Assembly (NCBI RefSeq): GCF_007746795.1
Contig: NZ_CP036343.1
Coordinates: 6,113,357 to 6,177,356, forward strand
Source of the DNA: Gimesia algae
GTDB lineage: Bacteria > Planctomycetota > Planctomycetia > Planctomycetales > Planctomycetaceae
Direction of reading: 5' to 3'
DNA: 64,000 nt
The notes beneath the pieces were generated by a model. It saw only the letters and a program-made list of their open reading frames with translations. It searched no databases and was not told the DNA's origin. Numbering within the stretch: the stretch's first letter is position 1; each line of letters opens with the position of its first letter. Made by a program: the position numbers and the translations under genes. Shown piece by piece: positions 24,486 to 41,224 of the stretch.

Positions 24486-24614
24486 TCCCGGGAAAAGTAA
24501 ACTATGGCTGAACGATTCCGGCGAACCGGTCCTGTTTATATACTGTCATACTTGCAAACAGCTTAAAAGTGTGAAACAGACCAAAAAGAATAGAAAATTC
24601 TCTCCCTGATCGAC

Positions 24615-24642
24615 TTGGCTTACGGGAAAAATTCCCTATAAT
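24615..24642 (+). promoter_or_regulatory. Housekeeping promoter of tRNA-Gln
   Basis: A perfect -10 box TATAAT (24637-24642) lies 16 bases after a -35-like TTGGCT (24615-24620). Transcription would start near 24649, about 60 bases before the tRNA. The pattern is sigma-70-like; use of the promoter is inferred. Confidence 0.6.
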
Positions 24643-24708
24643 GGCCAGAGAAAGCTGCAAGTGATGCTATCCACTGAGCTTATCAATGAAATATCAGACG
24701 CTAAGTAT

Positions 24709-24779
24709 TGCCTGATAGTGTAACGGTAGCACGAGTGACTCTGACTCACTTAGTCTAGGTTCGAATCCTAGTCGGGCAA
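24709..24779 (+). tRNA. tRNA-Gln (anticodon CTG)
   Basis: The cloverleaf folds without strain: acceptor TGCCTGA/TCGGGCA with one wobble pair, D-stem GTGT/GCAC, anticodon stem AGTGA/TCACT with loop CTCTGAC (anticodon CTG, codon CAG), and T-stem CTAGG/CCTAG with loop TTCGAAT. The discriminator base is A at 24779 and no CCA is encoded, so CCA must be added after transcription. Length is 71 bases. A promoter lies upstream and a terminator directly downstream, so it is a single-gene unit. Confidence 0.95.
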
Positions 24780-24783
24780 CTTG

Positions 24784-24820
24784 AAACGTCCTGAACCAGT
24801 TCTGGTTCAGGACGTTTTTT
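24784..24820 (+). terminator. Intrinsic terminator of tRNA-Gln
   Basis: A long inverted repeat (AACGTCCTGAACCAG with its complement) followed by six T residues starts five bases after the tRNA. The stem is about 15 bp with a small loop. It has the canonical form for rho-independent termination. Confidence 0.9.
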
Positions 24821-24967
24821 ATTTCCATAAATGGGACACAGCACAAGTTTACTGGAATGTGCCCCTGTGCCTGGTCTGAACGGCTTGTCCGACGGTGCCG
24901 AATGGGTGTGGGGAGTGTGGTTCCGAGTGGTATGTGGCAGCTGTGACCTCCTGCTCGCTGCGCTCGG

Positions 24968-24984
24968 CCCGAATTGCATTCGGG
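24968..24984. repeat. Extragenic palindrome, single hairpin form
   Basis: A perfect 7-bp hairpin with a 3-base loop: CCCGAAT, TGC, ATTCGGG. It is related to one half of the double hairpins at 25176-25212 and 41174-41205. Nearby, at about 24997-25030 in reverse orientation, is a copy of the CTACCACGAAAAGCACGAAA motif. Confidence 0.6.
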
Positions 24985-25090
24985 ATTACCCATTTACTTC
25001 TTTCGTGCCTTTTCGTGTTGTTCGAGGTAGAAAATTCAACTTTGCTGGTTTCATCGGTATCCATAGAAGGGCGAAACCAATTCGCACATC

Positions 25091-25222
25091 GCCAGGTGGG
25101 CGGACATGTGGGTACCGCTACTACAGGAGGGCAGGTTGGTGACCTGAAACTTAATTGTATGCCTGCCCTGGCAGTTTCCTGTTGTCTGCGACAACCCCGA
25201 ATTGCATTGGGGCTATCCGATT
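25091..25222. repeat. Direct repeat unit 1 (about 132 bp) ending in a double hairpin
   Basis: Shares clear similarity with 25424-25556. Common landmarks, in order, are a CCAGG..GGCGGA..CATGTG block, a GGCAGGTTG block, GTGAAACTT-like DNA, TTTCCTGTTGTCTG, and GGGGCTATCCG. The right end holds adjacent hairpins, TTGTC/GACAA type and CCCC-AAT/ATT-GGGG type. The hairpins match those at 41174-41205 in the opposite orientation. Confidence 0.7.
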
Positions 25223-25233
25223 CTTTCTCGAAA

Positions 25234-25260
25234 ATTAGCCGTACGGCATTAGCCGCGGTT
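25234..25260. repeat. 27-bp palindromic repeat core, copy 1
   Basis: This 27-base element starts ATTAGCCG and ends CGGTT. It aligns without gaps with 41086-41112, and both keep ATTAGCCG, a central TTAGC and a terminal CGGTT. The internal GCCGTACGGC is a perfect palindrome. Confidence 0.6.
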
Positions 25261-25423
25261 TTTTGCGAACTGGGAAAAAAAACGAGGCTCATCTGGGGTG
25301 ATCTATGATGAATATCGATGACACCTTTTTGATCCTTCTTTTTGAGCATTCAGTGGTTCGGGATTTTCATCTGCGGGGCTTGGGAACCGATCTTTATAAT
25401 TTGATGTGATCCAGGTTCGAACA

Positions 25424-25556
25424 CCACCAGGCAGGCGGATACATGTGTCGCGTCTCTACACCAGGGCAGGTTGATAACGTGAAACTTGATGGGGTGATTT
25501 CCCTGACAGTTTCCTGTTGTCTGTGACAACTCCAGATTACATCCGGGGCTATCCGT
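25424..25556. repeat. Direct repeat unit 2 (about 133 bp), degenerate copy
   Basis: A second, diverged copy of the unit at 25091-25222 in the same orientation. The block TTTCCTGTTGTCTG is identical, and GGGGCTATCCG also matches. The hairpin arms carry substitutions (TCCAGAT..ATCCGGGG), so this copy is probably older. Confidence 0.65.
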
Positions 25557-25577
25557 TGATTCAGGAGATTAATTTTT

Positions 25578-25606
25578 CTACCACGAAAAGAACGAAATCA
25601 CACGAA
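25578..25606. repeat. CACGAAA-type dispersed repeat
   Basis: CTACCACGAAAAGAACGAAA followed by TCACACGAAC. It matches the 20-base motif at 41021-41040 except for one base, and a reverse-oriented relative is at about 24997-25030. Similar CACGAA-rich strings are common between genes in many environmental bacteria; their function is unknown. Confidence 0.55.
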
Positions 25607-26224
25607 CATTTCATGCACCCTTACAGAATAAGGATTGAATGAGAGTGAGTGACTGTTTCGATAAATTATTCACTTATCAGTTTTGTGAGAAAGCTGATTC
25701 CAGGATCAGTTTAGTTTCATTATTCGCAGGAAAATCTTATGCAGGGGCATGAGGGCGTCAAGGGGGGATGAACAGAATCGGGTGGCGATGTTTGTTGATC
25801 CGGGTACGATGCTGGTGTGAGCAGTGGCGGTTCAGTGATGAAAGACTGCGAAGTGCGGCGACCCGCAGGCATACATTCGGAACAGGAGCGATTATGAGAA
25901 CTGATTATCTGGAAAAAACAGGCTGTTTTATGGTGAAGATCAGGAACAACTGTCGCGTGTTTCAGTGCACTGTAAACTGGGCACGCGCGCGACACAATTC
26001 AGCGTTTATCGCTGTTGGCGCGGCGGCGTCAAGTCGAAAATGATCAGGGTGTCAGCGAATGATTCACCAGTCGAATGGGCAACATCAGTTTCAGGCTGTT
26101 TCGAGTGGCTGTTGTTCACATAAATCCAGCAGATAATTGACAATCCCTGTTTGATCGCTGATGATAAACCATACAATCTTGTTTTATCAGTTTCATCTGG
26201 TTCCTGTAGTGAAGAGTCTCATCC

Positions 26225-41085: not shown

Positions 41086-41112
41086 ATTAGCCGCAGAGCG
41101 TTAGCGCCGGTT
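41086..41112. repeat. 27-bp palindromic repeat core, copy 2
   Basis: Ungapped counterpart of 25234-25260: ATTAGCCG, four variable bases, GC-TTAGC, then CCGGTT. Same orientation as copy 1. Confidence 0.6.
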
Positions 41113-41173
41113 GTCTCCCGACCTGCAGAAACCGCGACCAACTCTGTACGGCTCATGTGAAAGAAAGGGTGCC

Positions 41174-41205
41174 CCCGGATGTAATCCGGGGTTGTCGCAG
41201 ACAAC
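41174..41205. repeat. REP-like double hairpin
   Basis: Two hairpins follow each other without a gap: CCCCGGAT-GTA-ATCCGGGG (8-bp stem) and TTGTC-GCA-GACAA (5-bp stem). The same pair in reverse orientation ends the direct repeat units at 25091-25222 and, degenerated, at 25424-25556. The form resembles repetitive extragenic palindromes. Confidence 0.7.
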
Positions 41206-41224
41206 AGGAGACCACACGAAACGT

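Follow-up and report, generated by a model that had tools for sequence, protein, structure and literature searches.

The ends of IS200/IS605 elements are hairpins of one strand on which an HUH/Y1 transposase acts. REPIN/RAYT systems, represented by the E. coli REPtron and the Pseudomonas REPINs in the parts of two papers drawn on here (PMC6006769, PMC8049555), are built from short extragenic palindromes with a GTAG-like foot that are complete as inverted pairs; one type of RAYT is flanked by its own REPs, and single REPs represent decaying remnants. In the relevant sections of PMC3733652, GTAG repeats are described from many phyla, with repeat-specific REPtrons in species harboring several GTAG families, and degenerate feet, including GTGG, are known for some families. 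The same sections describe double inverted repeats beside two Pseudomonas transposase genes, the double palindromic TIRs of the P. putida 607 gene and the P. fluorescens 4255 gene, in which a GTAG-type palindrome together with a second stem-loop flanks a tyrosine transposase gene; they are dispersed and reach hundreds of copies. A rare Y1 class with atypical structures is placed mainly in Planctomycetes, Acidobacteria, and Proteobacteria (PMC6006769, in part), and REPINs of E. coli are commoner with a RAYT and persist without one (PMC8049555, in part). Among the matches listed from the open-access literature, none dealt with Gimesia REPs or RAYTs.

The repeats described here were identified in a 64,000-nucleotide stretch of the Gimesia algae chromosome (referred to as the window). 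We file the family as new, the kind of repeat (REP/REPIN with RAYT) being already known. Read from the foot, an end consists of GGGTR, an 8-bp main stem with a 3-base loop, a second hairpin, and CAGGA. The second hairpin exists in two types, TTGTC-loop-GACAA ("dh") or CGAGC-loop-GCGAG ("G"), and the middle pairs of the G-type second stem are G.A mismatches. With the REPIN/RAYT systems, the family shares short extragenic palindromes, a possibly GTAG-like foot, completeness as inverted pairs, its own REPs on the flanks of one RAYT type (T4), and single REPs as decaying remnants. However, the Gimesia ends carry a second hairpin or stem between main stem and interior, all complete pairs found combine unlike ends (dh and G), about half of the units have an exact GTAG or GTGG foot, and no T4 gene was found in the host. 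Like IS200/IS605, the system combines an HUH/Y1 transposase with hairpin ends on one strand; unlike them, dispersed Gimesia copies lack a transposase between the ends, and the T4 protein reaches 28.7 bits on the IS200 model, which is under the cut-off of 55. The double palindromic TIRs of Pseudomonas are similar in layout, but they come from another phylum, their GTAG unit is degenerate and their second stem-loop unrelated, and the comparison is one of published descriptions only (PMC3733652, in part).

In the 25-kb region of the window, two direct repeats of 132 nt each (25081-25212 and 25416-25547) are 74% identical (BLAST E-value of copy 2 against copy 1 of 7.6e-21), with starts 335 bp apart. 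The preliminary description of this DNA had proposed a unit of about 130 bp in two tandem copies. The two copies were recovered in head-to-tail orientation, but they are not contiguous, and the unit turned out to be a mosaic of several repeats (Table 1). Its further observation that the double hairpin recurs, inverted, at 41 kb was borne out by TTGTCTGCGACAACCCCGGATTGCATCCGGGG, which matches 41173-41204 apart from 1 mismatch (none of 100 dinucleotide shuffles gave such a match; both 25-kb copies exceed 3 mismatches), as was the presence of the CACGAAA motif at both loci. The related 46-nt G-type end, placed at 24949-24994 in the repeat comparison, shows 72% and 61% identity to the other two copies of the 25-kb region. 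The three ends within 24.9-25.6 kb share one direction, and the end-pairing scan of the window revealed four REP ends and no complete inverted pair. Folded as ssDNA, three of these ends were no better than shuffles (z-values of -0.51 at 24.95 kb, -0.60 at 25.2 kb, and -0.76 at 25.5 kb); the 41-kb end folded better (z-value of -3.18). At the site orthologous to this 41-kb locus, a longer composite (dh-C-B-K-A) is present in the related genome G012, and a shortened form is common to the host and its relative G008. Directly upstream of the 25-kb repeats lies a tRNA-Gln gene (24709-24780) followed by a terminator-like hairpin, and an intrinsic-terminator scan of 24600-26000 returned only this post-tRNA hairpin (24783-24818) and part of the same, and none of the REP hairpins of this region.

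Table 1. Repeat ends and modules at the two loci of the window
Feature	Position	Strand	Remarks
G-type REP end, single	24946..24991	-	foot GGGTAA, stem CCCGAAT/ATTCGGG, GCA loop, CCGAGCGCAGCGAG, CAGGAGGT; ends of this kind lie beside the T4 RAYT genes of five relatives
Module A, CACGAAA-type repeat, degenerate	25001..25033	-	arm of inverted pair I1
Module K, GTTTC..GAAAC-type inverted repeat of the composite	25048..25077	-	
Module B, degenerate, resembles T5-RAYT-adjacent repeat GTAGGGGCGGACCCATGTGTCCGCCCGC plus one inserted base	25090..25124	-	local score 27 (best of 1000 shuffles 23; below the substitution-only scan threshold)
dh REP end no. 1	25172..25219	-	foot GGATAG, imperfect main stem, TTGTC/GACAA hairpin, CAGGAAACTG
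Module D, one copy of the T7-RAYT-adjacent repeat kind (TTAGCCG..GCCGCGGTT)	25235..25261	+	
Module E, repeat GTGGTTCGGGATTTTCATCTGCGGGG..TTTATAAT	25353..25400	+	about 40 per genome by sampling (2 matches/400 kb)
Module B copy 2, degenerate	25425..25459	-	local score 26
dh REP end no. 2	25507..25555	-	
Module A copy 2, CACGAAA	25577..25606	+	inverted relative to 25001-25033; I1 arms 76% complementary
Module A, second site, CACGAAA	41020..41041	+	
Module D, second site	41087..41113	+	
dh REP end no. 3	41168..41209	+	near-consensus stems

Other identities for the repeats were considered and rejected. Integron attC arrays, considered for the 335-440-bp periods, were dropped given the inverted REPINs and the dedicated RAYT described below. 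Positions 25410-25421 resemble the T-loop region of a tRNA, but 27 of 30 host loci lacked any tRNA according to ARAGORN, which speaks against a tRNA-derived element. A plasmid origin was rejected for lack of a match in the plasmid collection, and the tRNA was the only known RNA family detected at gathering thresholds.

The stems of the ends were compared across 126 distinct units, which had been selected by the inner two main-stem pairs or else by the second hairpin, together with a 3-base main loop, leaving the outer six pairs as the test of covariation. A perfect 8-bp main stem was present in 86 of these units, compared to 12.2 on average and 23 at most when the arms were randomly re-dealt 500 times, a statistic that pools dh and G ends and does not control for kinship among units. 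Pairs vary between C-G, G-C, and T-A, between C-G and A-T, or between G-C and A-T at different positions of the stem, and the outermost pair is C-G in 63, G-C in 43, and T-A in eight units. The REP palindrome is kept by compensatory change. Feet of the type GGGTGG (42 units) and GGGTAG (20 units) contain GTGG or GTAG and together account for 62 of the 126 units, whereas GGGTGA (24) and GGGTAA (18) do not contain either, all within a search that itself required GGRTR. The main loop reads GCA, GTA, or GAA in 101 units, and the second loop reads GCA, GGA, GTA, or GAA in 83. GNA triloops are unusually stable in DNA hairpins, according to the part of PMC6479982 relevant here. As this GNA reading is found on the foot-carrying strand, we infer that the foot strand, as DNA, may be the active form.

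The repeats recur far beyond the window. With 25081-25222 as query, at least 45 BLAST matches were found in the closed 7.93-Mb host genome, 40 of 60 candidates having been scored; they are distributed chromosome-wide, frequently clustered in small arrays. Twenty systematically sampled stretches (400 kb in total) contained 11 dh and nine G ends, compared to one and zero in shuffled sequence that preserves base composition in 200-base blocks only; extrapolation yields about 200 ends of each type per host genome. The exact core matched 31 times in the host and its reversed control pattern not at all. The host numbers lie within the tens to hundreds of copies per genome expected of REPs. REP ends are mostly extragenic, as only three of 17 sampled ends lay inside ORFs of at least 150 aa, although such ORFs, taken in six frames, cover 80% of the sample. 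The family was matched in 14 of 17 genomes of the genus, host included, and in none of 13 others. Exact cores numbered 45, 21, 12, 8, and 5 in the five T4-bearing genomes and 60, 31 (host), 11, 10, 9, 2, 1, 1, 1, 0, 0, and 0 in the genus genomes without T4, counts for which several assemblies are fragmented or incomplete, the genome with 60 being an 80-contig assembly. Across the 17 genus genomes, we found no simple link between the presence of a RAYT and the number of REPs.

In complete copies of the host, a G and a dh end face each other in inverted orientation around an interior of either 95-116 bp or 219-220 bp, and each complete pair found combines one G and one dh end. Four complete pairs were present among the 17 sampled ends; 21 rows (18 distinct) of host loci and 26 in G008 contained such pairs, the loci of both genomes having been chosen for their dh ends. 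The REPIN at G000:C1:2889033, for example, is 185 bp long. The complete element is a heterodimeric REPIN of about 185-210 bp. A second form is represented by composites, which read dh - C - B - K - A - G inward from the dh end, with every end in one direction. Among 43 distinct host dh ends, five were accompanied by all five modules, 14 by an inverted G partner only, six by none, and the rest by fewer modules or by combinations, as judged with loose thresholds at loci picked for dh ends. The order C, B, K, A, G was unchanged in all rows listed, in any group. The same two forms occur in G008 (48 ends), G012 (40 ends), and G006 (three ends); of 35 dh ends in other genomes of the genus, 25 are paired with an inverted partner, a direct one (C-G) being seen just once. 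Some modules resemble repeats beside other RAYT types: module B matches the repeat beside the T5 gene of G005 over 28 exact bases plus one inserted base in locus L002, and module D matches the repeat beside T7 genes. The window copies are old insertions, partly duplicated and decayed. Since the window ends are single and the cognate T4 was not found in the host, they are to be regarded as remnants.

A further possibility, which we consider rather unlikely, is that in the G000/G008/G012 lineage the block of about 230 bp between two direct T4 REPs (dh - C - B - K - A - G) itself transposes, with REPs on the same strand used like IS200/IS605 ends and the foreign repeats carried as cargo.

The 17 genus genomes contain 53 places that match the Y1 transposase model (PF01797, Y1_Tnp), and the host accounts for four. 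This number is a floor, because the host T7 gene described below was missed by PF01797 at an E-value of 0.001, which renders both the census of 53 and the set of 47 control genes incomplete. By sequence motifs, 51 of 52 readable genes fell into seven types (T1-T7), and G016_4303, which has a broken frame, stayed untyped and was counted among the 47 non-T4 genes. The T4 RAYT of about 170 aa was found in G001, G005, G008, G010, and G014, the gene of G010 being broken. Both dh and G ends were present on both sides of all five T4 genes, and neither was found beside any of the 47 other Y1 genes, in a scan of up to 500 bp on each side that covered 52 of the 53 places (one lay outside a locus, and in six cases one flank was shorter than 500 bp). 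Regarding the HUH motif and the catalytic Tyr region, MPDHVH and YxHMNP are present in all five translated T4 frames. The T4 protein of G008, the only copy scanned, matched the REP-associated tyrosine transposase model NF047646 with 123.9 bits (cut-off 80) and was similar to TnpArep in PDB entry 4er8 (E-value of 1.2e-5). In G008 and G001, the T4 stop codon lies at the loop of the downstream end (GGG TGG CCC CGG ATG TAA; L153 3773-3797 and L150); the frame therefore ends in its own downstream REP loop, and its last residues are repeat-encoded.

Other RAYT types are accompanied by other palindromes, which applies to T6 (5/5), T7 (2/2), T3 (8/10), T1 (7/9), and T5 (1/2), all motif matches of these types depending on the mismatch thresholds chosen. 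A visibly related but changed palindrome lies beside the second T5 gene. The T3 palindrome is of the GTGGCACTGTTGGCTTGCCCAACAGTG type. Less exclusive is the T1 palindrome, which was also found beside six of 18 T2 genes, one of two T5 genes, and the untyped gene, and the T7 repeat also lies beside one of the 18 T2 genes. To T2, no motif of its own was assigned; AAAGGGGTCAGG, which is similar to the T1 palindrome, is common to nine of 18 T2 genes. Regarding side observations, a loose pattern for module A (CACGAAA) was detected within 500 bp of six of ten T3 RAYTs and one of 42 other Y1 genes (L034, L161-L168, L193). The host contains three T1 RAYTs (L031, L032, L033) flanked by AAGGTGTCAGGAACCTT palindromes, two of them in near-identical blocks with a frame that by eye is leucine-rich-repeat-like, and this near-identity suggests that the block was probably duplicated recently.

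T4 itself was not found in the host by a protein search of the 17 genus genomes that detects it in five. The T4 neighborhood is nonetheless syntenic there, with G000:C1:2880001-2900000 being about 91% identical to G008. In G008, the locus reads left flank - REPIN - RAYT gene - REPIN - spacer GGAAATTGTTGATTCGCATAAAATAGC - REPIN, and so on; the orthologous host locus reads left flank - REPIN - spacer GAGAATTGTTGATTCGCATAAAATAGC - part of a REPIN. Judged from this alignment, the host T4 gene would most simply have been lost by a recombination deletion between its two flanking direct REPINs. The T4 gene of G008 lies on the opposite side of an adjacent gene block compared to those of G001, G010, and G014, so that the gene may have moved in the G008 lineage; a deletion in the host is thus the simplest but not the sole reading.

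Further sites differ between host and G008. One site has a single REPIN in the host and four in tandem plus a further G end in G008, and at the tRNA-Gln site, the dh ends number two in the host and three in G008. A segment of about 210 bp, which starts with a foot and G end and finishes with a decayed dh end on its right, is present in G008 and absent in the host, gain versus loss being unproven for this case. Host-versus-G008 comparisons by assumed collinearity, one run of which covered 17 of 18 chosen G008 stretches and two host stretches, yielded no empty site at which both ends are intact. Locus L021 and its G008 counterpart have common flanks and differ in their intergenic content. L021 also contains, at 923-1332, a longer repeated stretch with many copies of 71-86% identity in the host, G008, G012, and G006. 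A separate repeat of about 95 bp (CTAGACTGTGTCCAGTTTTACTGTAGCGTCT..AGACGCTATGGTTAAATGTGATGCGCTCTAG) shows up to 94% identity between species of the genus, occurs in G012 at the window's 40.85-kb site, and, with 12 copies in the 400-kb sample, is estimated at about 240 per host genome. At one site, it is filled in G008 (L298) and empty in the host (L019, position 1477), and it looks like a MITE; within the window, none was found at the scan threshold.

Two further Y1 genes of the host were inspected for the same ends. T5 was not found in the host by a query that detects it in five of the 17 genus genomes. A T7 frame of 166 aa is present (G000:C1:3260032-3260508, L317) and is 80% identical to the G011 protein; its 3.5-kb locus contains four module D matches downstream and none upstream. 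Two fragments of a T7 gene lie within 4 kb of it. As this T7 looks intact and is accompanied by D repeats, the D family may still be mobile in the host. A decayed T2 gene lies at 2.102 Mb, and neither dh nor G ends were found near these two Y1 genes (T7 and decayed T2).

Taken together, we consider it very likely that the double hairpins are the ends of a non-autonomous single-strand element, i.e., a heterodimeric REPIN linked to a T4-type RAYT, and that the window copies are remnants of it in a mosaic. The T4 HUH/Y1 transposase would recognize foot and hairpins when the strand is single-stranded, e.g., during replication, and would cut and rejoin at the ends, thereby spreading REPINs between genes; this step is modeled on established knowledge of TnpA_REP. 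T4 would then have been lost from the host, leaving a single REPIN where G008 has REPIN-RAYT-REPIN. The remnant ends sit in a mosaic whose other repeats include some similar to the neighbors of T5, which was not found in the host, and of T7, which the host does have; parts of this mosaic are seen in fixed order at further sites and are in part tandemly duplicated. The REP-like family suggested in the preliminary description is thus supported by multiple copies in the host and matches in 14 of the 17 genus genomes (the count it had proposed as a check), by the mostly extragenic location, by the covarying main stem, and by a dedicated RAYT with the same ends on both sides in five of five cases; its motifs do occur elsewhere in the genome. 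Its further suggestion of mobilization in trans by a RAYT encoded elsewhere holds insofar as a cognate RAYT type exists in five relatives. In the host, this type was not found (the best match is 35% identical and of another type), and any mobilization in trans would therefore belong to the past rather than the present. Several findings run against our main reading: copy number does not track T4 (60 and 31 cores in T4-less genomes), empty sites with two intact ends were not found, an exact GTAG or GTGG foot is limited to 62 of 126 units, T4 lies on different sides of the adjacent gene block in different relatives, and three of the four window ends fold no better than shuffles.

Alternatively, the repeats could have spread by passive duplication, i.e., tandem duplication, gene conversion, or repeat recombination, with no transposase involved and the RAYT merely being among them. 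The variable number of units in arrays (two versus three dh ends at the tRNA-Gln site, one versus four REPINs) and the fixed module order of composite copies would fit this explanation. However, T4 and the ends coincide in five of five cases and in none of the 47 other Y1 genes, and the similarity between unrelated host sites (42 segments) peaks over the end itself, where about 28 other sites are similar, and drops to about 1-6 just past the foot; inward, it continues at about seven sites for segments without an inverted partner and to 1-4 for REPINs. We therefore regard passive duplication as very improbable. Even less is to be said for a continued mobilization of the ends in the host by the remaining T3-type RAYT. 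It is the host's closest match to T4, the two being 35% identical, but eight of ten T3 genes are accompanied by another palindrome (GTGGCACTGTTGGCTTGCCCAACAGTG type) and none of the ten by dh or G ends at the thresholds used, which leaves this idea with only a very slight chance. The slightest chance of all is given to hairpins being kept as functional sites of the host (terminators, RNA stability, or protein binding), i.e., by constraint instead of mobility, since their extragenic position, their covarying stems, and similar roles proposed for REPs elsewhere (PMC3733652, in part) are opposed by a terminator scan that found only the post-tRNA hairpin and part of it, by exact cores ranging from 0 to 60 per species, by the decay of three of the four window ends, and by the carriage of these ends by one RAYT type, which such a role leaves unexplained.

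Regarding its wider meaning, the heterodimeric REPIN represents a planctomycete repeat family tied to its own transposase type. With seven kinds of RAYT, the majority of which are accompanied by their own palindrome, the genus offers a good test set for how REPs are chosen, and the GNA triloops predict which strand is active. The REPIN-RAYT-REPIN locus and its counterpart with a lone REPIN can be compared base by base, so that one can trace what becomes of REPINs once their transposase is absent. If the block between direct REPs did transpose, RAYTs could mobilize other DNA between two direct REPs, beyond inverted REPINs.
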